Positions 4,003 to 44,841 of a stretch of DNA of 64,000 nucleotides are shown here, piece by piece (position 1 is the first letter of the stretch; every line of letters begins with the position of its first letter). Below the pieces are notes generated by a model, which was not told the origin of the DNA, searched no databases, and saw only the letters and a program-made list of their open reading frames with translations. The translations under genes and the position numbers were made by a program. Origin of the DNA: Bacteroides luhongzhouii. Its GTDB lineage: Bacteria; Bacteroidota; Bacteroidia; Bacteroidales; Bacteroidaceae. Where the stretch lies: the NCBI RefSeq assembly GCF_009193295.2, contig NZ_CP059973.1, positions 186,001-250,000 of the forward strand, in the 5' to 3' direction.

Positions 4003-4064
4003 AATTAAGAATGAAGAATGATGAATGATGAATGAAGAATTAAGAATGAATAACGGAGAAAAGA
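4003..4064. repeat. Low-complexity GAATGA/AATTAAGAATG repeat
   Basis: Short imperfect direct repeats of gaatgatgaatgatgaatga and aattaagaatga occupy the gap between the fumarase start and the preceding gene. No gene is visible. It may be slippage-prone sequence. Confidence 0.55.
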
Positions 4065-4103
4065 AGGAACAGCAAGAGACAACCCTAAACTATAAAACAA
4101 GAA

Positions 4104-4151
4104 GCGGCGAACAAGCAATGCTATCCTTCGGCATCTGCTGTTCACCGCCCA
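4104..4151. terminator. Imperfect hairpin downstream of the DUF4954-type gene
   Basis: gcggcgaacaagcaatgc pairs imperfectly with catctgctgttcaccgc around a cttcgg-containing loop, just after the stop of the minus-strand gene at 4180. It may be a terminator or a repeat; the stem contains bulges. Confidence 0.35.
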
Positions 4152-4179
4152 CTGTTTTGTTTACAGTTTGCTGTTTCGA

Positions 4180-6171
4180 TTATTCTACGATAGCTTCAAT
4201 TCGCTTGATAAGCTCATCTCCAAGAGCTGTTTTATCTTCAATATGTTTCAACACAGCAGTCACAAATGTATTGCTTTCGAAATCACCGCGTACTTGCTCA
4301 AAGTCCAGCTTCATTTCGTCGTGAGAGCCATCAGCACCGAATCCGGTCATGGAAGACAACGAGAATTCTTTCTTAGCATCCTCATATACCATCTTATCCA
4401 ATCCGACAACAGCTTGCTGCCAGGCTTTCACGATACCGATGATATCTTGTGCTGTTATCGTTTCCGGATCTAAGCCATAAAATTCCTGAATCTTATGATA
4501 AGCCCATGTCCATTCATAAGTATAATAATTCTCATGCATTTCCGCGAAGCTTGCATTGATGGACTTCAAACGATTGACAGCTCCTCTCTCAATGCCATCC
4601 AGCAATCGGTCGATCTCACTCTTGGGGGCAATCAGTCCGGAAACATCCACCCATTCGCCAATACCAATTTCCGTATCGGGTTTCAGGCGTTGGCGGATTT
4701 CTTCATTGCTCTGAAAGTTAATGCCTTCCAGCCGTTTTATAATGGAGTTTCCTAAGAACTTGTGGATAGCAATTTCATAAAAACGGATTCCGTTGTTCAA
4801 AGAAGAGTTCTTGATTTTAGCACTCTGGTAAGAGTAGATTTCTGAAGTTTCACCGGACACACGTTTCAATTCTTTCAAAATGGAACGACCTTTGAACATC
4901 TTCTGAATGGTATAAGGACTCAACAGGTTATAATTGATATAATCCAGCCTGTTCGGGTCTTTGCGGCTATCACGTTTCGGCCATTTTTGTGCATCACGGA
5001 TAGTACCTACACTTCTCAAGTTGACTCCCGGAACCAGATAAGTTGTATTCCGCTGCTCTATCAGGTAAGAGAAAGGAAGATTAGATGTATCGGCATGATT
5101 GACATGACGTCCCATTACCAATGAGAACGCTCCGACACGTGCCGGCCACAAGATATATGAATCAGAAGTAGTCTTCGCTCCTCTTTCCATCGTTCCTTGA
5201 TGAATAGGTCCCAACTTATACATGTGGTTGCTCTGATTGGATCCCGAGCCTGCATTCATAAACGAAAACATTCCGGCAATCAGCAAAGTAGACTTATGAT
5301 GTGTCACAGTGAAAGGACCTGCAAAAATAGCACACGCCTCACCGTTCTCTCCCTGACAATTACTAAAAAATAAAGAATCGGAAGCGGAATAATTGTGTCC
5401 CAATTTACAGGACTGTCCGACGAAACAACGGGTCAGCATTGTGCCGTCATCCACTTTTGAACCGGAAGAGATAATGAAGTCGTCACAAATTACCCCGTGA
5501 CCGATATGTACAGGCGCTGTCACATTACTATTGACGCTTCCATTGGACAAACGACAAGTTCCACAAATGTGACAGTAATCACCAATCCGGACATTCTTGA
5601 TTGAACCTGTATTGAGAATCATGACATGATTGCCAATACTACCGACAGCAGAAGCGTGTTTGTTGGAATAATAATCCGCAATTGCTTTCATGCGGTTAAT
5701 CAGTTCGGGACGATGACGATACAGCGCAAGTATATATGCCTGATGCGCAGATAGTTTGTCGTTCATCAACACTTCGCGCCCCCCTGTTTCATTCAAAACG
5801 GCCACTTCTACCCCATTACCGAAAGTGCTTAATCCATCCACTAAGATTATATCTACATTCTCAATGAAGGTATCACTACCAATCTCATAATTAGCAATGT
5901 AATTCTGGATATTTTCAATACAACAGTTATCACCCACCGATACATTGTGTAACGTCACATGACGTAATCCCGAATGTTTCTTAATTCCCCCCGGCAATGT
6001 AAATTCAGATTCGAATACCCCCAGTTTTACTTCACCCGAGAAACGGGTATGATGGACGTACTCACAATTAAAGCCCTCTGCCACTGATACATTTCCCCAA
6101 TCATCGGCCAGACACGACTGGCTCTTCAACTGAAGTACCTCATCTTCAGTCAATCTACGATAGTCTTTCAT
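4180..6171 (-). CDS. DUF4954-type left-handed beta-helix (hexapeptide repeat) protein
   Basis: A 663-residue cytoplasmic protein whose first half (about residues 40-330) reads as repeated hexapeptide turns such as IRIGDYCHICGTC and APVHIGHGVICDD, the left-handed beta-helix of acyltransferases and sugar-nucleotide enzymes. The C-terminal half is alpha-helical. I recognise it as the conserved Bacteroidetes family DUF4954, with no established reaction. There is no signal peptide. It lies between hflX and fumarase on the same strand, but with gaps of 92 and 225 bp. A nucleotidyl- or acyltransferase role is only an inference from the fold. Confidence 0.75.
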   Translation of the reverse strand: MKDYRRLTEDEVLQLKSQSCLADDWGNVSVAEGFNCEYVHHTRFSGEVKLGVFESEFTLPGGIKKHSGLRHVTLHNVSVGDNCCIENIQNYIANYEIGSDTFIENVDIILVDGLSTFGNGVEVAVLNETGGREVLMNDKLSAHQAYILALYRHRPELINRMKAIADYYSNKHASAVGSIGNHVMILNTGSIKNVRIGDYCHICGTCRLSNGSVNSNVTAPVHIGHGVICDDFIISSGSKVDDGTMLTRCFVGQSCKLGHNYSASDSLFFSNCQGENGEACAIFAGPFTVTHHKSTLLIAGMFSFMNAGSGSNQSNHMYKLGPIHQGTMERGAKTTSDSYILWPARVGAFSLVMGRHVNHADTSNLPFSYLIEQRNTTYLVPGVNLRSVGTIRDAQKWPKRDSRKDPNRLDYINYNLLSPYTIQKMFKGRSILKELKRVSGETSEIYSYQSAKIKNSSLNNGIRFYEIAIHKFLGNSIIKRLEGINFQSNEEIRQRLKPDTEIGIGEWVDVSGLIAPKSEIDRLLDGIERGAVNRLKSINASFAEMHENYYTYEWTWAYHKIQEFYGLDPETITAQDIIGIVKAWQQAVVGLDKMVYEDAKKEFSLSSMTGFGADGSHDEMKLDFEQVRGDFESNTFVTAVLKHIEDKTALGDELIKRIEAIVE

Positions 6172-25716: not shown

Positions 25717-25789
25717 GATTCGCTAGCTCAGCAGGTAGAGCACAACACTTTTAATGTTGGGGTCCTGGGTTCGAGCCCCAGGCGGATCA
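25717..25789 (+). tRNA. tRNA-Lys (anticodon UUU)
   Basis: A 73-nt cloverleaf: acceptor gattcgc pairs with gcggatc (one G-U), the D arm is gctcagcaggtagagc, the anticodon stem caaca/tgttg encloses loop cttttaa with anticodon TTT, and the T arm is cctggg ttcgagc cccagg. CCA is not encoded. Its 3' 13 bases form the left attachment site of the mobile element that follows. Confidence 0.93.
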
Positions 25790-25791
25790 CT
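25777..25791 (+). repeat. attL, 15-bp direct repeat in tRNA-Lys
   Basis: cccaggcggatcact, identical to 38429-38443. It covers the 3' side of the T arm and the acceptor stem of the tRNA gene, the classical integration target of tyrosine integrases. Confidence 0.85.
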
Positions 25792-25813
25792 GAAAACAAA
25801 AGAAAAATCAAGC

Positions 25814-25990: not shown

Positions 25991-26974
25991 TTAGGCGCAT
26001 AGCTTGGAGAGTCTGAACAGAAAGAATGGGATATCAGTAACGCCTCGGAATTGACTTCTGAATGCCTTGACTTTTGCGTTGAAAGATTCAGCGCCGGCAT
26101 TGGTGGAACGGTTGACAAAGTAATTCAGGATTGTGTCATAGTGGTTGCGGAATGTTTCTGTAACAGTGCGGAATTGGCCTCCGGCCATTTTCTCCACTTT
26201 GTCGTACCATCGGGCAAGATTCAGCCGGGCAGTGTCCTTATCAACTTTTTGGTTGAATATGCGGGTGAGGTCCATGGCAAGATCATACGCGTGTTTCAGC
26301 TCGGGATAAAATTCAAAAATGATGTCGGCTCTCCATTGCTGGGACTTCGTCCATTTGGAGGCATGTTTTGTCAGAATGTATTTGGCACGTGCAAGGAGCT
26401 GTTTCCGGGTGTCGCCGTTGGCATAACGGTAAGGAACATACGGAATGCCCTCCCTGCGACAGCGTGCAATCTCTTCGTTTTCAATATCCCTTGCCATCCA
26501 CCGCAGAGATATCCGCAGCTCGTCTATGGCATCGTAGTAGAGTTTATGGACATGAAAACGGTCGTTGGTCACGATGGCTTTGGGGAATGACCGACGGGCT
26601 ATGAGCATCATGGATGACGAAAGGTCGAGCGTTATCTCTCTTACCGTCTTTCGTCTGGCAGAAGATATCTTCTCAAGAACTGCAATGACCGTTTCAGCCC
26701 TGGTACCACGTATCGCCGCAACAAGCGCGCCCTTCCCGCCGTGAGCGTCACGGTTGGTGACAAAGGTATAGAGCTCGCCGCAGCTGAGCGAAGACTCGTC
26801 GATGGCCAGGTTCGGACCGATGTTCTGCGGATATAGCACGTACCCATCGGCGTGACACAGCTGCTTCCACTGCCTGTAGCCACTGAAAATCTCCTTATAC
26901 TGCCGCGATAGGTTGGAGCCATTTACACCGTAATGAGCACCGATTGAGCGTATGCTCTCAGGGGTGGATTCAAT
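25991..26974 (-). CDS. IS transposase, DDE type (ORF2)
   Basis: Catalytic transposase with the ISL3-like pattern LAIDESSLSCGELYTFVTN, REITLDLSSSMMLIARRSFPKA, TNDRFHVHKL and, near the C-terminus, NAGAESFNAKVKAFRSQFRG. The frame is open for 327 codons back to an ATT at 26974, with a stop 4 codons further upstream. So there is no ordinary start codon covering the conserved N-terminal part (ESIRSIGAHYGVNGSNLSRQ); the first GTG at 26839 would remove it. ORF2 is +1 relative to ORF1 and overlaps its end, which ends in the SD-like run aaaagaggagg. Expression may rely on frameshifting or an unusual ATT start. Confidence 0.8.
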   Translation of the reverse strand: MESTPESIRSIGAHYGVNGSNLSRQYKEIFSGYRQWKQLCHADGYVLYPQNIGPNLAIDESSLSCGELYTFVTNRDAHGGKGALVAAIRGTRAETVIAVLEKISSARRKTVREITLDLSSSMMLIARRSFPKAIVTNDRFHVHKLYYDAIDELRISLRWMARDIENEEIARCRREGIPYVPYRYANGDTRKQLLARAKYILTKHASKWTKSQQWRADIIFEFYPELKHAYDLAMDLTRIFNQKVDKDTARLNLARWYDKVEKMAGGQFRTVTETFRNHYDTILNYFVNRSTNAGAESFNAKVKAFRSQFRGVTDIPFFLFRLSKLCA

Positions 26975-27317
26975 CCTCCTCTTTTAAAAAAGCAACGAAC
27001 TCAGGGGTCAGGCGGCTGCCTTCTTCCGTCAGATCGTAGTCATAGGTAAAGATACTCCCGTCTTCCATGTCGCGCCACTTACGCCGTCGCACATGCAAGT
27101 ATACCGCCTTCCCGCGAATCGGAAAATCCTGTATCACACGTTCTTCGGTAAAGCCATATTCGCGGACAGTACCCTTCTTGTAATCTTCGCGAGACATATA
27201 ACCACGCTCGTCAAGCCAGTAATCCAGCCGTTCGTACGTTTCCTCGTAGTTGACAAACTCAAAGTTGGCCGTGATAATCTCCGGAAAGATTGTTTTTAAT
27301 ATCTGCCATTGTTTCAT
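26970..27317 (-). CDS. IS accessory protein (ORF1), N-terminal region of ISAon1-type transposase
   Basis: 115 residues, starting MKQWQILKTIFPE and ending AFLKEED. It resembles the small protein encoded upstream of ISAon1/ISL3-like transposases in Bacteroidetes, probably a DNA-binding N-terminal module. It sits inside the terminal repeats, directly upstream of ORF2 with a few bases of overlap in another frame. Confidence 0.75.
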   Translation of the reverse strand: MKQWQILKTIFPEIITANFEFVNYEETYERLDYWLDERGYMSREDYKKGTVREYGFTEERVIQDFPIRGKAVYLHVRRRKWRDMEDGSIFTYDYDLTEEGSRLTPEFVAFLKEED

Positions 27318-27479
27318 ACCGCAAAGTTAGCAAGACTATCACATTTTAACAACCTGTTTTTTACATTGACCCCTAAAAAGTCCCACGAATTTACATCTTT
27401 CTCACTGATTCATAGCATTTTGCATAGACTTACTTTGGAAGAGAATACATCGTTTTGTAACTTAAAAAACGATGTAAAA

Positions 27480-28699
27480 ATGGCTCGAAAATCATTTTCT
27501 GTTTTGTTCTTTATCAAAAAAGCCAAGTTATTAAAGAACGGAGAAGCACCTGTATGCATGAGAATCACTGTAAACGGCTGTATGGTAGATATTTCTATCA
27601 AAAGAAGTTGTCCCGTAAACCTATGGAATCAGGCAAAAGAGAATTCAAAAGGAAAAGACCGTATGTCGGTGGAACTGAACCACTACTTAGAAATCACACG
27701 CTCACGCATACACCAAATTTATAGGGAACTGGAAACTTCCGACAAGGTTATCACCGTTGATCTTGTGAGAAAACTGTATTATGGTGTGGATGAAGAAAGC
27801 AAAACCCTTTTGCAAGTATTCAGAGAACACAACGAACAAAGTCGTAAGCTGATCGGAAAAGACTTTGTTAGTAAAACCGTTCAACGGTATGAAACCACTA
27901 CCCGATATTTGGAGGAATTCATTAAGAAAGAATATCAGTTATCTGATATTGCCCTGAATAACTTGGAAGCCAACTTCATTTCTAAGTTCGAGCTTTCTTG
28001 AAGATTGAAAAAGGTTGTGCGCAGAACTCCGCTATCACCCGACTAAAGAATTTGAAGAAGATTATCCGCATTGCTCTGGAAAACGACTGGATAAAGAAAG
28101 ATCCGTTTGCTTACTATCGTTTCAAACTGGAAGAAACTGATCCCGAATTTCTGACGATGGACGAGATTAAAATCATTCTCGCTAAAGAGTTCACAATTAA
28201 ACGAGTAGAACAGGTACGTGACGTTTTTGTCTTTTGCATTTTTACTGGCTTGGCGTTCAGCGATGTGAAAGATTTATCACCCGAACACTTGGTAAAAGAC
28301 AATAAAGGAGAACTTTGGATAAGGAAGAACCGCCAAAAGACAAAAATCATGTGTAACATTCCTGTGTTACCAGTAGCAGCTTCCATACTTGATAAATATA
28401 AGGATGTGGCAGAGTGTACCGGAAAACTTTTACCTGTATTGTGTAATCAACGCATGAACAGTTATTTGAAGGAAATTGCCGATGTGTGCGGAATTCATAA
28501 AAATCTTAGCACACATACCGCCCGTCATAGCTACGCCACAAGCATTTGCCTTGCAAATGGCGTGAGTATGGAGAATGTTGCTAAGATGTTAGGTCATGCA
28601 GATACAAGCGTAACAAAACACTATGCAAGGGTATTGGATCAGAATATTTTCAAGGATATGCAAAAAGTAAATAGCTGCCTGTCGGAATTGGCTATATAA
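27480..28699 (+). pseudogene. Tyrosine integrase of the element, frameshifted
   Basis: Integrase expected to recombine attP with the tRNA-Lys site. The first frame (ATG 27480, MARKSFSVLFF) runs to TGA at 27999-28001 after FISKFELS; the second continues from there with KIEKGCAQNSAI to 28699. Restoring one base in the cttt run near 27993-27997 would join them into a protein of about 407 residues. The catalytic part has HTARH, LGHADTSVTKHY with the nucleophile tyrosine, but the first arginine is replaced (FTGLAFSDV), as is known for IntDOT-like integrases. The frameshift may be a true mutation, a programmed event or a sequencing error. The IS ends only about 100 bp upstream. Confidence 0.85.
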
Positions 28700-30241: not shown

Positions 30242-31026
30242 TTATTGAATCGAGCTGTTTAATAAGCCCAACCTTTGAGCAATATTAACAGCTTCAATAG
30301 AATTGTTTGCCTTTAATTTTAATAGTATGTTTTGCCTATGAGTATTTATTGTATTGATACTGACATTTAAAGAGTTTGCAATTTCTTTGCTTAATAAGCC
30401 TTGTTTCATTAATTGTAAAACGCACAACTCCCTATTAGTCAATGGTTCTTCTAAGGTATCTGACAAATCAATAAATATCTGTTCTCCTGTTTCAAAATTA
30501 TATAGGTGGCTTTTGGTTATTTCTGATTCATGACTTGCATCAACATCAATAACCGAAAGCATAAGCCAAATATTACCAGATTTATCCAATTCTATTGCTT
30601 GCTCCTGTTCAATAATACGGATATATTCACCACGTACATTTTTTACTCGCATCTCATGTACCATCTTGTGCTTCATTTTTTCTTCTGCGGAAAGACTACT
30701 TAATAAAGAGTAGATTTTCTTTCTAACAAGCAAGCCGTAATGTATATCACCCGGATGAATAATTTCTAAGACAGGTTCATGTCCGTTGATAAATAACCTT
30801 TCAGGGTCAATTCCGTATGACTGAGGAATATTGTCTGATACAAAAACGAATTTTTTAGTACAGCAATCAAAGACCAGCACAATACTATGCGCTAGTTCCG
30901 ACAATCTGAGCCAATCTGTTTTTTTTGTTCTATAACAGAGTAATCCAACTCGTTGATAAAAGCGCTTGATGTTGGCAGAATATTTTCGACTACTTTTTCT
31001 ATTTTATCTATTGATTCATTTTTCAT
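30242..31026 (-). CDS. LuxR-type regulator split by a frameshift at an A8 tract
   Basis: The C-terminal frame (30242-30904 and further upstream) encodes a PAS-like sensor region (AHSIVLVFDCCTKKFVFVSDN, then HPGDIHYGLLVRKK) and a LuxR/FixJ HTH (PLTNRELCVLQLMKQGLLSKEIANSL ...) at its end. Directly upstream, from ATG at 31026 (MKNESIDKIEKVVENILP), another frame reads into the same protein but meets a stop after SDCRN. A -1 shift at the run of eight A (30919-30926 on the plus strand as T8) joins both to about 260 residues with a sensible EQKKTDWLRLSELAHS junction. Slippage on A AAA AAA could be programmed; a simple mutation is the alternative. Confidence 0.72.
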
Positions 31027-32510: not shown

Positions 32511-32843
32511 ATGTATATAGATAACGAAAACTTCGAGAGGTGGATGGAAAAACTATCCAAGAAACTCACTGAAATCGGACAAGACTTGAAATCACTCATC
32601 AATACTGATGCGGTACTAGATGATAATGAGAAGATTCTCGATAATCAAGATTTAGCTTTTCTCCTGAAAGTATCTTTCCGAACTCTTCAACGCTACAGAG
32701 TAAATAAACAACTTCCCTATTTCACTATCGGAAGGAAAACCTATTATCGGGCTGTAGATATTCGAGCTTTTGTTCGTGAACGTGCCGATTCTCAAACCTA
32801 CAAGCAGTTTGAAAAAGCCAATCAGTTGGATAATCAACCTTGA
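32511..32843 (+). CDS. Helix-turn-helix protein, excisionase-like
   Basis: 110 residues with HTH_17-type winged helix at about 44-92 (DNQDLAFLLKVSFRTLQRYRVNKQLPYFTIGRKTYYRAVDIRAFV). Third such protein of this element. It lies between the RteC-like gene and the oriT-like region and may take part in relaxosome or excision control. Confidence 0.8.
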   Translation: MYIDNENFERWMEKLSKKLTEIGQDLKSLINTDAVLDDNEKILDNQDLAFLLKVSFRTLQRYRVNKQLPYFTIGRKTYYRAVDIRAFVRERADSQTYKQFEKANQLDNQP

Positions 32844-33127: not shown

Positions 33128-33712
33128 ATGCCAAACAGCAGTCGAAAAACGATATTCACTACCATTTCCATAGACAAGGAAGCGGCAGCTTTGGTAGAGA
33201 AGATATGCAAACGCTATTCACTGAAAAAGAGTGAAGTTGTAAAGTTGGCGTTTGGGTATATAGATAAAGCACATATCAATCCATCCGAAGCACCTGAATC
33301 TGTAAAATCAGAACTGGCGAAAATAAATAAGAGACAGGATGATATTATACGTTTCATTCGTCATTATGAGGAAGAACAACTAAACCCCACGATACGGGCA
33401 ACAAATTCTATCGCTTTACGCTTCAATGCTATCGGCAAAACATTGGAAACTCTTATTCTCTCTCAACTAGAAGCCAGTCAGGAGAGACAAACAGCCGTAC
33501 TTAAAAAGCTAAGTGAACAGTTTGGCAATCATGCCGGTGTGATAAACAACCAGTCCAAACAGATTAATGCACTCTACCATATACACCAACAGGATTATAA
33601 AAAGTTGCTTCAACTGATACAACTCTATTCAGAACTTTCTGCTTGCGGCGTGATGGATAGCAGAAAGAAAGAGAACCTGAAAAACGAAATCGGTAATCTA
33701 ATAAATACATAG
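33128..33712 (+). CDS. BfmA/BtgA-family mobilization accessory protein
   Basis: 194 residues. The N-terminus (SRKTIFTTISIDKEAAALVEKICKRYSLKKSEVVKLAFGYIDK) looks like a ribbon-helix-helix or related DNA-binding segment, followed by long coiled-coil helices (about 65-190). It precedes the relaxase gene by 4 bp, the usual order btgA-btgB, and probably helps load the relaxase at oriT. Confidence 0.78.
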   Translation: MPNSSRKTIFTTISIDKEAAALVEKICKRYSLKKSEVVKLAFGYIDKAHINPSEAPESVKSELAKINKRQDDIIRFIRHYEEEQLNPTIRATNSIALRFNAIGKTLETLILSQLEASQERQTAVLKKLSEQFGNHAGVINNQSKQINALYHIHQQDYKKLLQLIQLYSELSACGVMDSRKKENLKNEIGNLINT

Positions 33713-33716
33713 AGCC

Positions 33717-34688
33717 ATGCACATAGATTTTGCTCCACCATCTAAAGGTACATATAATAATGCTGGCAGTAGCCGACAGCTAGCAAATTACCTTGAACAT
33801 GAGGACTTAGAAAGAATGGAAAAGGGTATCTATACCGAAGGCTTTTTCAATCTTGCAGAGGATAATATCTATAAATCAAAGGTTATAAAAGATATAGATA
33901 CCAATATCGGGCAACTATTGAAAACAGATGCTAAGTTTTTTGCTATTCATATCAGCCCATCGGAAAAGGAACTCAGAGTAATGGGTAATACAGAACAGGA
34001 ACAAGCTGAAGCGATGAAACACTATATCCGTGAAGTGTTTATTCCTGAATACGCAAAGAACTTCAAAAAAGAACTATCCGCTTCGGATATAAAATTTTAC
34101 GGTAAGATTCATTTTAACCGTAGTTGTTCAAGGAATGAACTGAACATGCACTGCCATTTGATAGTCAGCCGTAAAGACCAATCCAACAAAAAGAAACTAT
34201 CACCACTTACGAATCATAAGAACACCAAGAATGGAATAGTCAAAGGTGGTTTTGACCGTGTGAATCTCTTTCAGCAGGCAGAACAGGGATTTGATAAGCT
34301 ATTCGGATATGATCGCCAACAAACAGAATCATTTGATTACCAAAATGTGATGAAAAACGGTTCTATATCGGAACAGTTTGAACTACAGGAGCAAGAAACT
34401 CAATCCAGTGAAAGAAAAACAGAAATCAACCAGGATAGCAACCAAGAGAACTTATTTTCTATCAATCTTGAAAACAAGGAAGCAAGTAACCAAGCTTTCA
34501 ATACAAATACCCATATTTTCACTCCACAAGAAAATAATACCTCTATCAATCCATCTTTCTATAATGAAAACAACCAAACATCAAATTCATTCATTTCTTT
34601 TATTTCTTCACAAAAAGCAGACTTCCAATTCAACTCCGAAGAACAAATACCTAAGCTCAAGAAAAGAAGGAAGCAAAAAAGGCTTTAA
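33717..34688 (+). CDS. BtgB-like/DUF5712 relaxase (mobilization protein)
   Basis: A 323-residue protein that should nick oriT and lead the transferred strand. The N-terminal 210 residues form the relaxase domain, with a histidine-rich LNMHCHLIVSRKD motif (H145, H147) and an earlier FAIHISPSEKE strand. The C-terminal 110 residues are a low-complexity Gln/Asn/Ser-rich tail ending KKRRKQKRL, an unusual composition in a protein of this size. Start at ATG 33717, 4 bp after the accessory gene. Confidence 0.8.
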   Translation: MHIDFAPPSKGTYNNAGSSRQLANYLEHEDLERMEKGIYTEGFFNLAEDNIYKSKVIKDIDTNIGQLLKTDAKFFAIHISPSEKELRVMGNTEQEQAEAMKHYIREVFIPEYAKNFKKELSASDIKFYGKIHFNRSCSRNELNMHCHLIVSRKDQSNKKKLSPLTNHKNTKNGIVKGGFDRVNLFQQAEQGFDKLFGYDRQQTESFDYQNVMKNGSISEQFELQEQETQSSERKTEINQDSNQENLFSINLENKEASNQAFNTNTHIFTPQENNTSINPSFYNENNQTSNSFISFISSQKADFQFNSEEQIPKLKKRRKQKRL

Positions 34689-34773: not shown

Positions 34774-34781
34774 TATATTTG
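34774..34781 (+). promoter_or_regulatory. Candidate promoter of the three-gene cargo operon
   Basis: tatatttg fits TAnnTTTG, lying 180 bp upstream of the first cargo gene, after the relaxase stop. The long AT-rich leader is unusual and could hold regulatory sequence. Confidence 0.4.
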
Positions 34782-34960: not shown

Positions 34961-36007
34961 ATGAAAAAACTAAAGAAAATAGGACATGATATTGCATTGA
35001 ATAATTTTGTAGTTCATCAAGTTACTAAAATGGCAGGAGATAGAAAGACAGGATTAAAGTTAGCAAAATCGACTCTTAAAACGACAACAAAGGAATCTGC
35101 CTTTATTGCTAAAATTACAGATGCCTATTCTAAAAAATCACATCCGACATATGGCATCTTTAATACAGAAAATAAGTCTAATGAGTTTCAAACTTCATTA
35201 AGAGAATTTTGTGCAGGAAAAACTGATTTCATTTCCTTCTCTCAAAGATCGATGAATTACTATAAGACTGTTATAGAAAAAAATGCACCTGCAAGTGGAG
35301 GGTTTGTTGTATTTGCTTTTTATAATAATACAACAAACAAGACACAACATCTTCTGGTTTTAACTCTCAATAACAAAGATGGCTATTATATTGATGAAAA
35401 AAATCTTACTATTGAAGATATAAAGAATTTAGACTTGAGCAAAATAGATGTGGCATGTCTTATTAATATAACAAAATGGCTAAAAATTGAAAGGGGCGAG
35501 AATTTGGAGAGTAAAACCTATCTATCCTTCGTAAAAGGGAATAAAGATATTAGTCTTTACTTTATGGATTTTATTGGATGTCAAAATAAGACAACTAGTA
35601 CAGATTCTTCTAAAAAATTAGCAAATGCATTAGTGAGATTTTGTACAAATAAGAAATATGATGATGCAAAAACAAGAGATATTAAAAATGCCGTTTATTA
35701 TTACTGTATTGAATGTATTAATGCAAAAAAAGAAATTTCATTATCTGCTATATCTGCGCTCATAAATCCAGAAAATCCTGATGAATTTCAAGAATTTGCA
35801 TCTTCGGAGGAAAACGAAGTAGATGAAATTATTAGTGGAGATAAAACGATCTTGAAGACATTGAATTATGTCAAATATAGAACACCTGATTTAACTGTAG
35901 AATTCAATAATAAGTTAATAGGAGTTCAAATATTCTACAGCGACAAAAAAAACGAACTAACAATTAAAAATGTACCGGATGAATTGAGAAAGCAAATAAC
36001 CCAATGA
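34961..36007 (+). CDS. NdpA/YejK-like nucleoid-associated protein (cargo gene 1)
   Basis: 348 residues, close to the 335 of E. coli YejK, and collinear with it. YSKKSHPTYGIFNTE corresponds to the SKNKAYGLFSEE region, SGGFVVFAFY to the GGFVLF strand, INITKWLK to LTEW, YLSFVKGNKDISLYFMDFIGC to the conserved FLKG..FFMDFLG block, and LTIKNVPDELRKQI to the C-terminal end. The family binds nucleoid DNA but has no clear molecular function. It overlaps the next gene by 4 bp (ATGA type). Very AT-rich, located in the cargo slot of a mobile element, which is unusual for a nucleoid protein. Confidence 0.82.
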   Translation: MKKLKKIGHDIALNNFVVHQVTKMAGDRKTGLKLAKSTLKTTTKESAFIAKITDAYSKKSHPTYGIFNTENKSNEFQTSLREFCAGKTDFISFSQRSMNYYKTVIEKNAPASGGFVVFAFYNNTTNKTQHLLVLTLNNKDGYYIDEKNLTIEDIKNLDLSKIDVACLINITKWLKIERGENLESKTYLSFVKGNKDISLYFMDFIGCQNKTTSTDSSKKLANALVRFCTNKKYDDAKTRDIKNAVYYYCIECINAKKEISLSAISALINPENPDEFQEFASSEENEVDEIISGDKTILKTLNYVKYRTPDLTVEFNNKLIGVQIFYSDKKNELTIKNVPDELRKQITQ

Positions 36008-37209
36008 GACATATGATGCTTACACAAATAGTAGACATATTAACAAAAAGCAATATAACTATTTCTGATGATTCTCTTTCAGTTGACAATTACAAGATAT
36101 TAGACGAAAGCAGCATTATTAGTTTGGAGAATTGCATTGAACAAATATATGATAATAAAGGGAATATTATTGGATTATCAGATATTCAAAAGAAGCAAAA
36201 TGTTCGTATTGTATTCTCTCTGTATAGATTAAACCAAACAGGTTATTATGAGACATCCGATGTCTTTGTTCGAAAAAACAAAATTATATCTCCTGCGTCC
36301 TATTATATTCAAAATATAGGATTCCAAAATAGTGAGCATACTTTTATAAAGAAATATCATGCCTTAATTAACTTTATTCAATCAATTGGTGATCTGGCTA
36401 AATACAAAGAAGAATCTCCTGATATAACAACATGTGTCATCATCTGCGAACAGAAAGCCCTTATTCTGCCTATCATTTACAGTGGTGAGGATGTTGTCAA
36501 TATAGATTTCCCAATAGAAGAAATGAATTATGCAACAGAATTATTCAAAAAAAATAATAGCGAAGAAAAACTTCTTTTCATTAATGAATTAATGGAATTT
36601 TTATCAAATGTAACAGAAGAAAATCGCTTTGTCTATTTATTGCAAAACTTCAATGAGTATTATTCCAAGTCTATTGATAGCTTTCAATATTATATCAGAA
36701 ACTTCTCATATAATAAACTGAAATCAGAATTAGATAATGCGATATTAGATTATTCTAAAAAAATACAATCAGTAATTAATGATGCACAGTCTAAACTCAT
36801 TGCTATTCCTGCTGCTTTTGTTTTAGCAGCAGCCAACATTGAATTTGATAATATATTATCAATAAAAAATATAGCTATTTTAATTAGCTTGTATATATTT
36901 GCTCTGTTAATAGGTATATTCCTAAATAACCAAAGCAGCGTCTTAAATATGATTGATATTAATATTCAATCATATAAAGGAACTTTTGGGGGTAATAGTA
37001 ACGTTGTAAAAGATGCATTTATATTAGTCGATAAGGAGCTAATGAAACAAAAAAACAGACTGTTTATTACTCAATTTATCAATTGGGGAATACCTGCTTT
37101 ATTAACACTCTTGTATATAGTTGTTTTCATAGCAAACATATCAATAATCACATCTGACATAATAATAAAAATATTAAAATCATGTATCACTCAGAATCTT
37201 CATATATAG
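36004..37209 (+). CDS. Membrane protein of the NdpA operon (cargo gene 2)
   Basis: Not recognised. 401 residues: a soluble N-terminal region (1-235) with alternating beta and alpha segments, a helical linker (SYNKLKSELDNAILDYSKKIQ, about 235-258), then hydrophobic segments at about 265-280, 288-307 and 361-385 with a hydrophilic loop between. There is no signal peptide. So the soluble part is probably cytoplasmic, anchored by a C-terminal membrane domain, an arrangement often seen in membrane-acting defence effectors. It is translationally coupled to both neighbours (4-bp and 28-bp overlaps). Confidence 0.75.
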   Translation: MRHMMLTQIVDILTKSNITISDDSLSVDNYKILDESSIISLENCIEQIYDNKGNIIGLSDIQKKQNVRIVFSLYRLNQTGYYETSDVFVRKNKIISPASYYIQNIGFQNSEHTFIKKYHALINFIQSIGDLAKYKEESPDITTCVIICEQKALILPIIYSGEDVVNIDFPIEEMNYATELFKKNNSEEKLLFINELMEFLSNVTEENRFVYLLQNFNEYYSKSIDSFQYYIRNFSYNKLKSELDNAILDYSKKIQSVINDAQSKLIAIPAAFVLAAANIEFDNILSIKNIAILISLYIFALLIGIFLNNQSSVLNMIDINIQSYKGTFGGNSNVVKDAFILVDKELMKQKNRLFITQFINWGIPALLTLLYIVVFIANISIITSDIIIKILKSCITQNLHI

Positions 37210-38219
37210 AAAATACTTCCTTGCATCTTGTTGGCAATAAATCAAACGAAGAAAATATTCGTTTCTCCAGCAACTTGCTAAATATAAGTACCGACTTAAA
37301 TAGAATTTTATTACACTATTTCTTGTCTTCTTTCAAAAGCAATGAATTCTATAATTTCTACCATGATATTAATATAGAAATGAATGAAGTGTATGTTTGT
37401 GTAGAAAATATATTTAAAAACAATGAAACATTACATGCACAGTCTATAAATCTGGCAAAACACTTGTATAAAAAAAGTACACATCCTCAAATCAAGGGTG
37501 GCGAATTTTATACCGTTTACTTTAAAGATTGCATTTTAGAAGGAGAGATAGTAGATGCTATTGGTTTATTTAAATCAGAGAATAAAGACACTTTTTTAAA
37601 AGTATCAACGCTGAAAAATGATTTTAAAATCGAAACTGTTGAAGGCGTTAATATCAATAAATTAGATAAAGGTTGTTTGATATTCAATAAAGAACGCGAG
37701 AGTGGATATATAGTTGTTGTAGTAGATAATACAAACAAAGGGATTGAAGCACAATATTGGTTGGATGATTTTTTAAGTATTAGACAACGCAATGATGAAT
37801 ATCATGACACCCAAAACATACTCTCACTTTGCAAAAGCTTTATAAAAAAAGAGTTGCCAAAACATTTTGAAATTTCAAAAGCAGATCAAGCTGAATTACT
37901 GAATAAATCAGTGAGCTATTTTAAAAATAATGAGAATTTCAATATGAAAGAATTTGCTAGTGAGGTAATTTGCCAACCAGAAATCATTAATACTTTTAAT
38001 CAGTACAAGTCTTCATTCCAAGAAGACTATGATATAAGAATTGCAGATAATTTCACTATTTCAGAAAGTGCTGTAAAAAAACAAGTACGTTCAATAAAAA
38101 GTGTGATCAAACTAGATAAAAATTTCGACATCTATATTCATGGAAATTCAGAGCTTATAGAGCAAGGGGAGGATAGTAAAGGGAAATTTTATAAAATGTA
38201 TTACACCGAAGAATCGTAG
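37182..38219 (+). CDS. Second NdpA-like nucleoid-associated protein (cargo gene 3)
   Basis: 345 residues of a divergent NdpA branch: YKKSTHPQIKGGEFYTVYFKDCILEGE, DAIGLFKSENKDTFLKV, GCLIFNKERESGYIVVVVDN, AQYWLDDFLSIRQRNDEYHDT and a C-terminal beta-rich end. It is clearly not a duplicate of cargo gene 1 but shares the general domain. Start overlaps the membrane-protein gene by 28 bp; a start further inside cannot be excluded. The operon ends about 210 bp before attR. Confidence 0.75.
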   Translation: MYHSESSYIENTSLHLVGNKSNEENIRFSSNLLNISTDLNRILLHYFLSSFKSNEFYNFYHDINIEMNEVYVCVENIFKNNETLHAQSINLAKHLYKKSTHPQIKGGEFYTVYFKDCILEGEIVDAIGLFKSENKDTFLKVSTLKNDFKIETVEGVNINKLDKGCLIFNKERESGYIVVVVDNTNKGIEAQYWLDDFLSIRQRNDEYHDTQNILSLCKSFIKKELPKHFEISKADQAELLNKSVSYFKNNENFNMKEFASEVICQPEIINTFNQYKSSFQEDYDIRIADNFTISESAVKKQVRSIKSVIKLDKNFDIYIHGNSELIEQGEDSKGKFYKMYYTEES

Positions 38220-38428: not shown

Positions 38429-38443
38429 CCCAGGCGGATCACT
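38429..38443 (+). repeat. attR, 15-bp direct repeat
   Basis: cccaggcggatcact, identical to 25777-25791. It is followed by a hairpin homologous to that behind the tRNA. Only the last part of the tRNA sequence is present. Confidence 0.85.
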
Positions 38444-38446
38444 CAA

Positions 38447-38605: not shown

Positions 38606-39682
38606 TCATCTTCCTATCAATTCCAAAAATAAATTCGGAAGAGTGTCAGTTGAATCTTGAACAAAATTCTTATACTTATAATAGATATAAGGAAATGATT
38701 TATCTTTTGTACTTAATGGCGCTTCTTTATACACTTGATTCATTATAGGAGCAACATAGCTTAATTTGTAAGAACTAAACTGACTTGCAATTAGACGAGC
38801 TTTGCTCAACTTGTTCATCTCTTGCGCATTAACAAATTCATGCATTAAACGCTGATATTCTGCATGTCTCGTCCAATCTTTGCCAAATGGAAGATCCGGA
38901 AAAGAGATGACATCAACTTCTTTGAGTATAAAATCTGTAGAGTTCTGTGACCAAGTTATAATAAACAAACGTAATCCAGATTGAACTCTTAATATTTCTT
39001 GCGACTGCCAACGTCTTACATCATTATCATATTGAATATAACCATACTGGTTAGTTCTTGCATATTTTCCCAAGAAAAATTCATTGTTGCAATGCTTAGC
39101 GACTTCAGTATTATTTGCATTCTGAAATTCTAGTATTGCAATTGGCTGAGAATCTTGATTTGAAACAAAACAATCTATATTTGTAGGCCAAGCACATCCA
39201 GCACTTCTAAGAGCTCTGTCAAAATAAGGCAAGTCTTTACGCTCACGATATGGTTTTGTCGACTTCCAATCCTTAATTGTAGAGATCCAGTTAGAAAAGC
39301 CATGATATGTATCATATGAGACAGAGAATTTGCATGTAGCAAGATTCAAAATAGTATACACCCATACGGACTCCTCTTCATCACAATACAATACATATGT
39401 CAATGGACAATTGAAAGCATTTGCAAAATTTATTTTTCGTTGTAGAACTTCAGGTGTCTCTAATGATATTATTGCAGAAAGAACATCTCTTTCAGAAGAT
39501 ATACCTGGAACAAAATCCACTCTCGCACGTTCAAATAAATGTGTAACAATATTGTTATTGTTTTCATTACATCCTTCAATGGCATCAAAGAAGAGCCCTG
39601 TCTTTTCAACTAGTATTTTCTTTGCCCAATTAATAGCATCACTTCGCTCAGAAGTTTCCTTACGATAATTTATAAATGCCAT
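38606..39682 (-). CDS. Unknown protein of the type III R-M operon, possible PD-(D/E)xK-like
   Basis: Not recognised as a named family. 358 residues, no signal peptide. A possible nuclease-like core is visible: FDRALRSAGCAWPTNIDCFV with D170, then a hydrophobic strand IAILEFQNA with E185 and Q187, resembling the D-xn-ExK/Q pattern of PD-(D/E)xK enzymes. It is the third gene of the mod-res operon, 11 bp after res, so a role linked to restriction or anti-phage activity is likely. res already has its own nuclease site, so this would be an additional or regulatory protein. Confidence 0.6.
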   Translation of the reverse strand: MAFINYRKETSERSDAINWAKKILVEKTGLFFDAIEGCNENNNNIVTHLFERARVDFVPGISSERDVLSAIISLETPEVLQRKINFANAFNCPLTYVLYCDEEESVWVYTILNLATCKFSVSYDTYHGFSNWISTIKDWKSTKPYRERKDLPYFDRALRSAGCAWPTNIDCFVSNQDSQPIAILEFQNANNTEVAKHCNNEFFLGKYARTNQYGYIQYDNDVRRWQSQEILRVQSGLRLFIITWSQNSTDFILKEVDVISFPDLPFGKDWTRHAEYQRLMHEFVNAQEMNKLSKARLIASQFSSYKLSYVAPIMNQVYKEAPLSTKDKSFPYIYYKYKNFVQDSTDTLPNLFLELIGR

Positions 39683-39693
39683 AATAAATTTGA

Positions 39694-42600
39694 TTAATTA
39701 ATTGTTTGCATCACATCTAATAGATGCTCATAACTATCTACATCATGATACTTAACATTTTCGGTAGACATTTCATTGAAAAGCTTCTTTGCACAACTAA
39801 TCTTTGCTTTCTCAATTGCACGAAGTTCCATTGAATCCATTGTTCCTTTAGTTTCTGCGATGAAGAAAATATGCTTCACTGTACCTTTTTTGAAAGCTAT
39901 TGCCCAATCTGGAGAATAGTTGCCTACTGGTGTAGGAATATGAAAACTCTTTGGTAGTTTTGCGTATACCTCAACTTCCTCTGCGCTTTCAAGGCTTTGG
40001 CAAAAAGTCTTTTCTATACTATTTTCTGCTGTTCCATCAGTGAAAACATAATCTGTGATATGACGTTTTGCACGAATAGCTTTATCATAGCCTGTACTAT
40101 GTTTTTCTGCTGTAAAAATAGAATTATCATACTTACCCTCAATGCGATTATACGAGATATGCTCAATAACCATAGTCGCTTTTTGAGCTTTAATCAGGTT
40201 AATAACCTTCGTTATAAACTCCTCTGGATTAACCGCAAACATCATTTTTTTCTCTGGAGTTAATTTCTCCAAAATACGACTAACAGTTATTCGTGTTAGG
40301 GTAGCTCCTTTGGCAATATCACCAATCAAATCATAGGGTGTTGTACATGCATATGTATTTCGCAAGTTTTGTGAGCGCGAAGAAACTCCACCAAATGTCG
40401 TTCCACTCTTAATTTGCAATTGAGATATTTTTTCATTTTGTTGTCCAGTTGTTATGCTATATCTTACTTGTGCAACATGCAATTCTTTATTAATCACCTC
40501 AGAAGCATTCTTAATCAATTCTTCACTGTCAAGACTTACAGTATATGCATACTTATGATTAATTTTTTTCCATAAATCCTGGAATTCTTTCTTATAAAAG
40601 TTCTCGTTAAGCGGGTTATCTTCAATTGTAGTATCGTGACCATTTTCAAACATACCATCCAAAGCATGCTCATCAAAAATAGATTGAATGAGTTTATGAA
40701 CTGGTTCTTCCATGCCACGGAGTTTTTTGGGTAGCTGTTCCAATGTTCCACTTATAACCGCTTTGTGATATTCTTTCGTAATACCACCTTTAGAATCGAT
40801 ATAGTCGTTGTCCACGAGGTAAGAAACAATACTTGCCGCCTGTTGATCATCAATTGTGATAATGTTTTCGCCAACCTTTAGTATCTTACCCTTAAAATAT
40901 TCTGTAGTCGCTTTAGTCGGACGATCATAAAGAACATCTCTTGTCTCTTTCTGTAAATCGGTCACAAAAGTAGCATAGCTTTCGCTTGCAATTACAGTGA
41001 GTTTATTAATCTCGTGAACCAGGTCTTCACCTATAGTCTGTGCATCCATGCGGGTTCCCAAGCTGTTCACTGCAAGGCGTAACCCTCGTCCAACCTCTTG
41101 ACGCTTAACTGTTGCACTTTCGGAATGTTTAAGAGTACAAATCTGGAAAACATTTGGATTATCCCACCCCTCACGTAGTGCTGAATGAGAGAATATAAAA
41201 CGTGTTGGCTCATCAAAACTTAACAAACGCTCCTTATTTTTTAAGATCAGATCATACGCAGAAATGTCATCTGAAATATCTGATCCTTTTTTCAATTCGC
41301 TGTTAACACTATGCCCTTTTTTATCAATACTAAAGTATCCACGATGAATATCATGAGTATCAAAGCGACGAAGATATACCTGATAATCATCCTTTTCAGC
41401 TTCATCACCACTTAAACCAAATAATCTCAGTTTATCATTAAGTATATTGTTATATTCCTCCTCAAAAATTTTCCCATATTCTCCAAGAAGTTCTTCTCCA
41501 TCTTCACCATATTGACGATACATTGAAACATGATCTATAAAAAAAAGCGAAAGTGTCTTTATACCCCTACGGAATAACGCCTCTTCCTTTTCAAAATGAG
41601 ATTGAATTGTCTCACGAATTTGAATACGACGCATATCCTTTTCAGAGATGTCACCAACGACATTTCCTGTTTTCATTATTTCTCCATTGACAAATTCAAT
41701 CGTACTATTATCTGGATCGATATTATTTATTGTATATCCACTTTTATACTGTTGTAATTCATTGGATGCTAAATATAAGTTATCTCCTACACCCAAAACT
41801 TTAGTTTTTCGAACAACACCATTTGCTTGGCGCACTTCGATTTCTAATCTTGCCATCGGAGGCTTATTACTTGAAACAACGATCTTTTCGAAGAAAATAT
41901 ATCGGTCAGTACCTCGAAGATTGTGTATTTCAAAACCTTTTACTTGGATTTTCTTTACAAGTTTTTTATTGTATGCATCAAGAGCGTCAAGAACATACAC
42001 CTCATTGTGATGATTCTTATGAGTAGCCGAGTAGTTGATCAAAAAAAGAGGATTAAAGTTCTTGATTCCTGTTTGAGTAGCAGCACCTTCCATTTTTTGT
42101 GGTTCATCCAGGATGACAATTGGACGATTTGCTTTAATAATATCTATAGGACGACGACTGTTAAACTCATCACGTTTTGAGTATATAATACGACTTTCTT
42201 TATTCTTTGCCCCCTCTCTCATTGACGTTGCAAATGCTTGAGTATTTATAATCATCACATTTATTCCAGCATCACTTGAGAATTTATCTAATGCATTTAA
42301 ATTACCACTGTTGTAAATGAAAAATCTTGCTTTTTTGCCATAATGTCTCATGAAATGCTCAACTGTCATTTCCATAGACTTTTTTACGCCTTCACGTATG
42401 GCAATACTAGGTACGACTACGATAAATTTACTCCATCCGTACTGCTTATTCAGCTCAAACATGGTCTTCACATACACATAAGTCTTACCTGTACCGGTTT
42501 CCATTTCGACATCCAAAGATACACGCCCTATGGCTGAAAATAGTTTTGATGACTTATGTATATTCTGCTGCGCTTGAATTGCATTAATGTTTTCAAGTAG

Positions 42601-42885
42601 TTGCTGATCCGACAAAACAATATCTGCATTACGATATCCAGCTGCATCCAGCTGTTCCTCAGCATCTGAGACATCAATACCATCTCCCAAATCATTAAAA
42701 TGCAACCGGAGAGCTTGAACTTCTTCTTTAGAAGCTGCCTTTGCTTTTTTTCCAGAATCTCTTGCATAGATAGTGTTATCACTAGTCTCATCAAACTTTG
42801 GTTGGCCTGCAAAAACACTAACGATGCTTTCAACAGCATCTGTTTGATATGGTTGTATTTTGAAATCAAATTTCATTTCTTTCAT
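39694..42885 (-). CDS. res: Type III restriction enzyme Res subunit (helicase-nuclease)
   Basis: ATP-dependent translocase/endonuclease that cleaves unmodified DNA when complexed with Mod. The 1063 residues have Walker A METGTGKTYV (GTGKT 131-135), a DEPQ box (260-263), downstream superfamily 2 motifs (FIFSHSALREGWDNPNVFQIC and QEVGRGLRLAVN) and the C-terminal nuclease site SPDWAIAF...FIAETKG (D993, E1011, K1013). All key residues are present, so the enzyme looks functional. Start is 3 bp after the mod stop. Confidence 0.93.
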   Translation of the reverse strand: MKEMKFDFKIQPYQTDAVESIVSVFAGQPKFDETSDNTIYARDSGKKAKAASKEEVQALRLHFNDLGDGIDVSDAEEQLDAAGYRNADIVLSDQQLLENINAIQAQQNIHKSSKLFSAIGRVSLDVEMETGTGKTYVYVKTMFELNKQYGWSKFIVVVPSIAIREGVKKSMEMTVEHFMRHYGKKARFFIYNSGNLNALDKFSSDAGINVMIINTQAFATSMREGAKNKESRIIYSKRDEFNSRRPIDIIKANRPIVILDEPQKMEGAATQTGIKNFNPLFLINYSATHKNHHNEVYVLDALDAYNKKLVKKIQVKGFEIHNLRGTDRYIFFEKIVVSSNKPPMARLEIEVRQANGVVRKTKVLGVGDNLYLASNELQQYKSGYTINNIDPDNSTIEFVNGEIMKTGNVVGDISEKDMRRIQIRETIQSHFEKEEALFRRGIKTLSLFFIDHVSMYRQYGEDGEELLGEYGKIFEEEYNNILNDKLRLFGLSGDEAEKDDYQVYLRRFDTHDIHRGYFSIDKKGHSVNSELKKGSDISDDISAYDLILKNKERLLSFDEPTRFIFSHSALREGWDNPNVFQICTLKHSESATVKRQEVGRGLRLAVNSLGTRMDAQTIGEDLVHEINKLTVIASESYATFVTDLQKETRDVLYDRPTKATTEYFKGKILKVGENIITIDDQQAASIVSYLVDNDYIDSKGGITKEYHKAVISGTLEQLPKKLRGMEEPVHKLIQSIFDEHALDGMFENGHDTTIEDNPLNENFYKKEFQDLWKKINHKYAYTVSLDSEELIKNASEVINKELHVAQVRYSITTGQQNEKISQLQIKSGTTFGGVSSRSQNLRNTYACTTPYDLIGDIAKGATLTRITVSRILEKLTPEKKMMFAVNPEEFITKVINLIKAQKATMVIEHISYNRIEGKYDNSIFTAEKHSTGYDKAIRAKRHITDYVFTDGTAENSIEKTFCQSLESAEEVEVYAKLPKSFHIPTPVGNYSPDWAIAFKKGTVKHIFFIAETKGTMDSMELRAIEKAKISCAKKLFNEMSTENVKYHDVDSYEHLLDVMQTIN

Positions 42886-42888
42886 TGT

Positions 42889-44841
42889 TTAATATACCTT
42901 AAGATGGGTATCCGGGCTATATGACTTAAACAACTGTTCAAAGTTAACAGCAACACTATCGTTTGCCATAGAACTATCTCGCATTACAAAATAATATGGT
43001 TTGCTCTGAGCTATTTCTGAAATAACTTTATCAGTAACTCCTGGTTCAAAACAAGCCATCATATAACCATCTGCAACAGAATATACAGTTTTACCATGTA
43101 TAATGGTTGTCTCTATTTTACTTGAGAGAAGGCAATCTAATTCCAACATGGCCTGAAACAACAAATCATCAGCTGTTCTGTCTAACTTTATATTATCAAC
43201 AGTAGATGCAAACAAATCCTTTGTAACATAATCGTTAGGAGTATACCATACCTGTTGCATATTACTTGAATCCAGTTTTAACACACGAAAACCTGTGTCA
43301 AACGAAGCATCAGGATACGTTTCTTTTAGCATCTTAGATGCCTGCCGTATACGTTCTTTTCCTATTTCACAAATGTTTTTAAAACCTGCCTTATTCGCTT
43401 CACTTTTAGGTTCAGTAGGTTCCTGCAACTGTACCATGATAAACTTTTTACGAGTACCCTCTTTGGCGTTCATCTCCATAACAGCATGCGCAGTTGTTGC
43501 AGAGCCAGAGAAGAAGTCTAAAATAATACAATCATCATCTGGAGCCGCAAAACCAATAATACGACTTAATAAGGAAACTGATTTAGGATTATCAAATATT
43601 TTTTTACCGCCAAGTAATTGTTCCAGTTGCTTTGTTGAAGCTCTGCCATCTTCATAATATATACTTTTAAACTGTTCTTTGACAGTCTCTATACGTTTTT
43701 TAACGTGAGGTTGTGTCGTTTCATCTTTTCCCCACTCAATATCTCCAACCTTATCATAATCCCAAAAAGTTGTTTCAGTCCAACGCCAACCGAATTCAGG
43801 CTTTACACACGGTTTACCAGTAACAGGATGAATGATATCAAATGTATAGCCACCAGGTTTTGTATTAGATGAATTTGTGGAGTTACTGTACACACCACGT
43901 TCATCCACATTATTATAATGAGATACTCCCTTTAAATCTGTCTCATTTGCTTTTATCCATTGGCGCAATAGTTTCTGCTGTTCAGCAATGTCTGTAGTTT
44001 TATGCTTTATCAATTTATATTGTGCATTGATCTTTTGAGCTTTATCAGACTCAACAAACCATGGAGTAAGGAAATTCACATCCTTTGCAAAACAAAGAAT
44101 GTACTCATGCTCTGTTGATATTTGACGAGGATTGTTATCTGTAGCTGATTGCCAAATAATTTCACCAACAAAATTTATTGAGCCAAATAGTTCACAACAA
44201 ATCTTTTTCAAATTCTCAACTTCATTCTGGTCAATACTAATAAATATCACACCGTCTTTTGCAAGCAAATTTCTAGCAATCTTTAAACGAGGATACATCA
44301 TGTTAAGCCAGTCAGTATGAAAGCGGCCATTAGACTCCATATTAGCGGATAGCCGATTTCCATCTTCATTATATTGGCCTGAGCGCAACATATATTCTGA
44401 TGTCGTCTGAGAAAATTTGTCTGGATATACAAATTCCTTACCTGTATTATAAGGTGGGTCTATATAAATCAGTTTAACTGTATCCAAGTAATTTTCTTGC
44501 AAGAGCTTTAGAACTTCAAGATTATCACCTTCTATATAAAGATTTTCGGTTGTATTGAAGTCTCCATAACTTTCTCCTATACAAGGGCGAAGTGTGTTCA
44601 TACTTGGAGCATTTGCTGCAAGAATAGCTTTTCTCTTGTCGGGCCAGGTGAACTGGTAACGTTCATCTTTGCCTTCTACAACATATGTAGAGATCTCTTG
44701 CATAAGTACGTCTTTATCAATAGCTCTAACCAGGTTACCATCGATATCAACGGTTTCCGTCACAGCATTTGGAAACAGTGCAGCAAGTTTTGCAAAATTC
44801 TCATCTGCTCGATTTTTGGTTTGCATTCTTAGTCTATTCAT
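42889..44841 (-). CDS. mod: Type III DNA methyltransferase Mod subunit (N6-adenine)
   Basis: Recognition and methylation subunit. 650 residues; motif IV DPPYNTG (128-134) precedes motif I DFFSGSATTAHAVM (442 onward), the beta-class order, with the target recognition domain in between (about 205-400). It methylates adenine in one strand of an asymmetric site; the specificity is not deducible. No tandem repeat tract typical of phase-variable mod genes was seen in the coding region. First gene of the operon with res and the 38606 gene; two XRE regulators lie upstream on the same strand. Confidence 0.92.
   Translation of the reverse strand: MNRLRMQTKNRADENFAKLAALFPNAVTETVDIDGNLVRAIDKDVLMQEISTYVVEGKDERYQFTWPDKRKAILAANAPSMNTLRPCIGESYGDFNTTENLYIEGDNLEVLKLLQENYLDTVKLIYIDPPYNTGKEFVYPDKFSQTTSEYMLRSGQYNEDGNRLSANMESNGRFHTDWLNMMYPRLKIARNLLAKDGVIFISIDQNEVENLKKICCELFGSINFVGEIIWQSATDNNPRQISTEHEYILCFAKDVNFLTPWFVESDKAQKINAQYKLIKHKTTDIAEQQKLLRQWIKANETDLKGVSHYNNVDERGVYSNSTNSSNTKPGGYTFDIIHPVTGKPCVKPEFGWRWTETTFWDYDKVGDIEWGKDETTQPHVKKRIETVKEQFKSIYYEDGRASTKQLEQLLGGKKIFDNPKSVSLLSRIIGFAAPDDDCIILDFFSGSATTAHAVMEMNAKEGTRKKFIMVQLQEPTEPKSEANKAGFKNICEIGKERIRQASKMLKETYPDASFDTGFRVLKLDSSNMQQVWYTPNDYVTKDLFASTVDNIKLDRTADDLLFQAMLELDCLLSSKIETTIIHGKTVYSVADGYMMACFEPGVTDKVISEIAQSKPYYFVMRDSSMANDSVAVNFEQLFKSYSPDTHLKVY

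Follow-up and report, generated by a model that had tools for sequence, protein, structure and literature searches.

A three-gene NA37–membrane protein–NA37 operon related to the DS-1 anti-phage system on a Bacteroides mobile element

Organization of the operon

We analyzed a 64,000-nucleotide stretch of the Bacteroides luhongzhouii genome (contig NZ_CP059973.1, positions 186,001 to 250,000; hereafter, the window), in which a small mobile element carries an operon of three genes, two of which are related to the anti-phage system DS-1. The first-pass annotation, made from the sequence alone, had described two NdpA/YejK-like nucleoid-associated proteins flanking a protein with a soluble N-terminal region and C-terminal membrane segments. 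All three genes are on the same strand:

34961..36007, +, gene 1: 348 aa; class I (YejK/DS1_1-like) NA37 protein
36004..37209, +, gene 2: 401 aa; membrane protein, distant homolog of the second DS-1 protein
37182..38219, +, gene 3: 345 aa; class II NA37 protein; this type is common in the order to which the window belongs

The open reading frame (ORF) calls reproduce the annotated coordinates exactly, with overlaps of 4 bp (36004–36007) between genes 1 and 2 and 28 bp (37182–37209) between genes 2 and 3. NA37 proteins are nucleoid-associated and affect topoisomerases. Both outer genes match the family profile (PF04245) far above its cut-off of 24.6 bits (gene 1: 205.9 bits, E 1.3e-60; gene 3: 122.7 bits, E 2.8e-35), as the first-pass annotation had anticipated, and match each other only weakly by BLASTP (E 0.021). 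Gene 1 has a sequence match to YejK (PDB: 9be2; E 2.9e-38) and scores 220.3 bits against the YejK equivalog model NF001557, which is under the cut-off of 341. For gene 3, the relationship is seen at the level of the fold: its predicted structure (model mb392bd69c0fb; mean predicted local distance difference test score, pLDDT, of 78) matches Escherichia coli YejK in a Foldseek comparison (E 6.7e-9, TM-score 0.47), and this is the sole PDB match at E ≤ 0.001. Apart from genes 1 and 3, no NA37 gene was found in the 5.76-Mb genome of the window.

Genes 1 and 2 are distant homologs of the DS-1 proteins

The first-pass annotation knew of no described system with this composition. That claim did not survive comparison with the NCBIfam models, in which gene 1 matches NF053868 (DS1_1_antiphage; E 1.8e-31, 109.5 bits) and gene 2 matches NF053869 (DS1_2_antiphage; E 4.5e-18, 65.5 bits). 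By these profile matches, genes 1 and 2 are distant homologs of the two DS-1 proteins; because both scores fall far under the equivalog cut-offs (330 and 315 bits, respectively), the operon is classified as a DS-1-like relative rather than as DS-1. The model next after NF053869 is DS2_1; thus, there are two consecutive DS-1 models, and DS-1 is modeled with two proteins.

The name evidently comes from the DefensePredictor study (Science 2026), that is, DefensePredictor system 1. As described in the available text of that study, 94 transcription units were tested, 42 of them were protective, the set was validated in E. coli, and the YejK nucleoid-associated domain is among the domains newly validated in defense (PMC13092281). 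Judging from the NCBIfam names, the YejK system of this study is probably DS-1. The defense role that the first-pass annotation had proposed for the operon is accordingly supported, as far as sequence can tell, by homology to an experimentally tested system.

An E. coli pair exceeding both DS-1 cut-offs (451.4 and 375.2 bits) is present in plasmid record CP088862.1 (locus L110), and its DNA is also found in 105 of 5426 complete E. coli genomes. It occupies positions 2523–4915 of L110 within a lambdoid prophage-type region, where it is encoded on the opposite strand and flanked by holin and antitermination genes, and there is no third gene at this locus. A profile of the gene 2 family matches E. 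coli DS-1 protein 2 with a probability of 95.9 (E 5.1e-9). A DS-1-like pair in an Acinetobacter phage record (L112) has a 210-aa ORF (4028–4660) behind it, overlapping the pair; this ORF has no Pfam or NCBIfam family and is perhaps another third component.

Recurrence of the three-gene order across genomes

A database search at E ≤ 0.001 gave 215 relatives of gene 2; among the best 120 of these, some are 98% identical and are named Bacteroides fragilis and Coprobacter. Within the order of the window, gene 2 was detected at the same threshold in 4 of 393 genomes, one of which (G332) is doubtful; the weak match in G332, a genome without NA37, was dropped. A pattern-based scan with one genome per species yielded 20 loci. 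Gene 1 lies immediately upstream of gene 2 in 19 of them, and gene 3 immediately downstream in 10 (L007–L015 and L018, including L011, where gene 3 is cut by the contig end). The co-occurrence elsewhere that the first-pass annotation had asked about is therefore real, and the three-gene arrangement exceeds chance because the identical order recurs across other genomes.

The gene 1–gene 2 pair was also present in seven of the eight phage and plasmid records fetched, namely, those of Sinorhizobium phage phi2LM21, Methylobacter, Pseudomonas putida, Methylobacterium and Sphingomonas, and two unannotated human-gut phage scaffolds. When relatives were compared with the DS-1 models, all seven gene-2-type proteins matched DS1_2 (62–87 bits) and all three gene-1-type proteins matched DS1_1, in every case under the cut-off. 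These results extend the DS-1-type pair to Bacteroidota, phages and plasmids and define a three-gene branch.

Gene 2 and the proposed mechanism

Gene 2 has no Pfam match above any cut-off and is not identified by Pfam, PADLOC or NCBIfam as any known protein of housekeeping or conjugation, the two identities against which the first-pass annotation had cautioned. Hydropathy reveals membrane-like stretches at 283–311 and 357–392. In the AlphaFold2 model (mbd793ab95209; mean pLDDT 83, predicted template modeling score 0.58), an alpha/beta N-terminal part is followed by three long helices (216–277, 287–326 and 332–400), in agreement with the annotated soluble N-terminal region and C-terminal membrane segments. 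Mean conservation is 78% in residues 216–262 and 71% in 263–314, compared with 54% in 1–215, 59% in 315–355 and 37% in 356–401, and invariant polar residues are located near the membrane edges. This distribution suggests that the membrane junction is active and is not a passive anchor. Given the conservation peaks at 216–262 and 263–314, we read these regions as signaling into an active membrane domain and, on this reading, prefer an abortive membrane effector with an NA37 trigger.

We favor, with a probability of roughly 0.4, the view that genes 1–3 form a defense module in which a DNA-sensing NA37 protein would switch a membrane effector so that the infected cell is stopped. The observations from which this view starts are the homology to DS-1, the order of the three genes together with its recurrence, the membrane-type character of the gene 2 sequence and the class to which gene 3 belongs. 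Gene 1 would bind phage DNA, or recognize the altered topology or the protein coat of that DNA. From there, the signal would run via the conserved cytoplasmic helix of gene 2 (216–262) into the first membrane hairpin (263–314), which might oligomerize and make the inner membrane leaky, resulting in abortive infection. Gene 3 could serve as a self-reference or regulatory subunit, through mixed dimers with gene 1 or through occupancy of host DNA. YejK itself inhibits gyrase and topoisomerase IV, as stated in the available text of PMC10053502.

The best-surviving alternative, possible but doubtful, is a passive, membrane-tethered DNA trap, in which gene 2 acts as an anchor and forms a lattice while the NA37 proteins hold the entering phage genome at the membrane, so that its replication or transcription is blocked but the cell is not killed. 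Such a trap would work like Kiwa while being unrelated to it by descent; in Kiwa, as summarized in the relevant part of a review, KwaA forms membrane tetramers and KwaB dimers bind DNA without cutting it (PMC12904381). The pairing of a DNA-binding-type protein with a membrane partner fits this arrangement, as does the lack of a nuclease domain above the Pfam cut-off in genes 1, 2 or 3. Against it, conservation of gene 2 is highest in the membrane junction and hairpin and not in the soluble domain, and the PADLOC scan of genes 1–3 returned no family at E ≤ 1.

Gene 3 belongs to a class of NA37 proteins that is also encoded by stand-alone genes

Homologs of gene 3 are present in 158 of the 393 genomes of the order and in 76 of 395 genomes of the phylum, mostly one per genome, and in the phylum sample they are common in some families. 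Relatives of genes 1 and 2 were not found by tblastn beside the best gene-3 homologs in any of 29 loci (flanks up to 1.5 kb; the gene 3 of the window itself was left out). Thus, the NA37 class of gene 3 is also encoded by stand-alone genes in related bacteria.

A tree of 47 gene-3-type proteins does not unite the 10 operonic copies in a single clade; they are mixed with stand-alone ones (the truncated L011 copy is omitted). The starred branches of this tree require at least three changes between the operonic and stand-alone states, so the slot has swapped copies with stand-alone genes, in either direction; a single clean capture, considered as a candidate, is not supported by such interleaving. 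On the gene 2 tree, the three-gene state needs just two changes, and likewise two on the gene 1 tree.

These data bear on the next alternative, in which genes 1 and 2 would suffice for defense, with gene 3 a passenger that is carried along or only manages the supercoiling of the element. In its favor, DS-1 as modeled consists of two proteins, gene 3 is missing from the E. coli locus and from the two-gene relatives, and the operonic copies are dispersed over the tree with repeated changes of state. However, the reading frames overlap in the window, and a class II NA37 protein occupies the third position at half of the 20 loci, a repeated use of the slot that is unexpected for a passenger. We consider this explanation unlikely.

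Occurrence of further NA37 proteins in cis and in trans

In the gene 2 tree, one clade (100/99) of 18 loci includes all 11 three-gene loci (that of the window among them), six two-gene loci and L023, in which the contig ends inside gene 2 and a cut gene-3-type piece begins at the end of another contig. The six two-gene members, from Flavobacteriaceae, Weeksellaceae and Sphingobacteriaceae, are nested within the clade as one subclade (96/95). Each of the six two-gene hosts in the clade encodes a gene-3-type protein at another site, whereas 8 of the 11 three-gene hosts lack any NA37 protein beyond those of the operon. These 8 include all three of the three-gene hosts that are not metagenome assemblies (the genome of the window and those of L007 and L009). 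Hosts with a chromosomal protein of the gene 3 class may do without a copy in cis. L023 and L024 (gene 2 broken, gene 1 absent) are omitted from the count, and the Fisher p of 0.009 for the split ignores shared descent and is not a probability. Outside the clade, a second NA37 protein is present in four of seven two-gene hosts (G797, G800, G706 and G552).

This pattern raises the question of whether DS-1-like defense requires a second NA37 protein, in cis or in trans. Under one reading, which we regard as quite improbable, the operon would be a three-subunit immunity system with a host-class nucleoid protein as the self marker, such that foreign DNA is read against DNA dressed with class II NA37. 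The class II protein would be brought in cis to hosts that lack it and might be borrowed in trans where it is chromosomal. If this were true, E. coli DS-1 would depend on the host YejK. A requirement of DS-1-like defense for a second NA37 protein, if real, would tie chromosome organization directly to self recognition in bacterial immunity. A strict need across the whole family was rejected, given that three two-gene hosts (G247, G200 and G737) have just the NA37 protein of the operon.

Several points weigh against the defense module with an NA37-triggered membrane effector, and against the cis or trans supply of its third component. The DS-1 scores of both window proteins are so far under the cut-offs that function may have shifted. 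The available text of PMC13092281 gives no mechanism for the YejK-domain system. The structure comparison yielded no relative of gene 2, which makes the pore a guess, and the eighth phage or plasmid record (L039) carries a gene-2-type stretch but lacks gene 1. The self-reference role of gene 3 is called into question by 3 of the 11 three-gene hosts, which have a further NA37 protein (G786, G788 and G790), and by three of the seven two-gene relatives that fall outside the clade, in which the operon's own NA37 protein is the only one. Moreover, most of the three-gene hosts (8 of 11) are known from metagenome assemblies, and genes can be missing from these. The cis/trans pattern is suggestive, yet it may reflect descent, and perhaps one loss or event, because the gene 3 class is common in some families of the phylum sample.

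The host element and its surroundings

The operon is located between the relaxase gene and attR of a 12.7-kb element integrated at the 3′ end of a tRNA-Lys gene, so its assignment to the cargo position, downstream of the BfmA and MobB genes and within the bounding repeats, stands:

25717..25790, tRNA-Lys; the element is integrated at its 3′ end
25777..25794, +, attL-side direct repeat, over the 3′ end of tRNA-Lys
33128..33712, +, BfmA/BtgA-family mobilization protein of the element (NF041200, above cut-off)
33717..34688, +, MobB-type relaxase (DUF5712) of the element (PF18976, above cut-off; NF041495, 155 bits, cut-off 200)
34774..34781, +, candidate Bacteroides-type −7 box TAnnTTTG (weak)
38429..38446, +, attR-side direct repeat, 17/18 identical to the attL-side repeat

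The first-pass annotation had also given the operon a candidate promoter of its own. There is a match at 34774 to TAnnTTTG, which we take to be a Bacteroides-type promoter motif; the evidence it offers is weak, since at least one such match arises in 14% of shuffled sequences.

The tyrosine recombinase of the element is split into two overlapping ORFs in different frames, 27309–28001 and 27998–28699 (+), which correspond to an arm/SAM-like part and a catalytic part. An ISL3-type transposase gene (25991–26839, −) lies between attL and the integrase, and a LuxR-type regulator with a PAS domain is encoded at 30242–30904 (−). The HTH_17 protein at 32511–32843 (+) has a sub-threshold match to the MADS defense protein MAD1 (20.3 of 80 bits) and more probably has a regulatory or excisionase-type function in the element. 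Directly outside attR, PADLOC identifies a type III restriction-modification pair, beside a 358-aa ORF without a Pfam family (39694–44841, −, and 38606–39682, −).

For the relatives, the neighbor set comprised 135 ORFs of at least 110 aa from 16 of the 20 loci; all 135 were scanned with PADLOC as a tally and 20 of them singly. Type I methylase and specificity models head the tally. At least 9 of the 16 loci have matches to defense models within ~8 kb, a raw count without correction for background; some of the matched models are broad helicase or nuclease families. Type I restriction genes are close to the operon in five loci (L009, L012, L019, L020 and L026), and the other matches are to NsnA (L017), Ppl (L021), DpdF/PsyrT (L015) and PDC-S73 (L016). 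In Flavobacterium flabelliforme, AbiH directly follows gene 2 (L026:9186–10172), starting 4 bases past its end.

It is very improbable that the operon regulates the element, with the NA37 proteins lifting host silencing and controlling transfer, as NdpA2 boosts TprA-driven expression of the transfer genes of the integrative and conjugative element (ICE) PAPI-1 according to the available text of PMC8565334, and gene 2 acting as a mobilization accessory: although the operon immediately follows the relaxase gene, the gene 1–gene 2 pair also occurs without these mobilization genes (in the E. coli lambdoid prophage-type region, in the Sinorhizobium phage and beside type I restriction genes), and the related E. 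coli pair is modeled as anti-phage after a tested system.

Comparison with known systems

Kiwa resembles the operon in general plan only, a membrane protein combined with a DNA-binding protein. PADLOC includes Kiwa models, and it gives no sequence match for genes 1–3; KwaB is not among the listed Foldseek matches of the gene 3 model, in which YejK alone appears at E ≤ 0.001, although absence from that list does not exclude a KwaB-type fold. By these comparisons, Kiwa does not come out as a relative; the first-pass annotation had drawn the parallel while noting that the families differ. NdpA2 of ICE PAPI-1 is also an NA37 protein on a mobile element; it differs in acting with TprA and MvaT on transfer genes, and no membrane partner is mentioned in the available text (PMC8565334). 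YejK/NdpA (PF04245, PDB: 9be2) represents the family of genes 1 and 3, matched by gene 1 in sequence and by gene 3 in fold. In contrast to it, gene 1 stays under the YejK equivalog cut-off, and both genes share an operon with a membrane protein.

The closest known system is DS-1. In both, an NA37 protein is directly followed by a membrane-type protein of ~400 aa, both proteins are profile-homologous, and the E. coli pair and the window operon alike reside on mobile elements. The two differ in sequence, with 22% identity over 188 aa between gene 1 and its E. coli counterpart and 35% over a 66-residue core for gene 2, and in host group. Furthermore, the window adds a third, overlapping NA37 gene. 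No publication on the three-gene form was found among the matches listed for open-licence PMC articles. The novelty of the operon is thus that of a three-gene variant related to DS-1, in which the third gene is new relative to that system.

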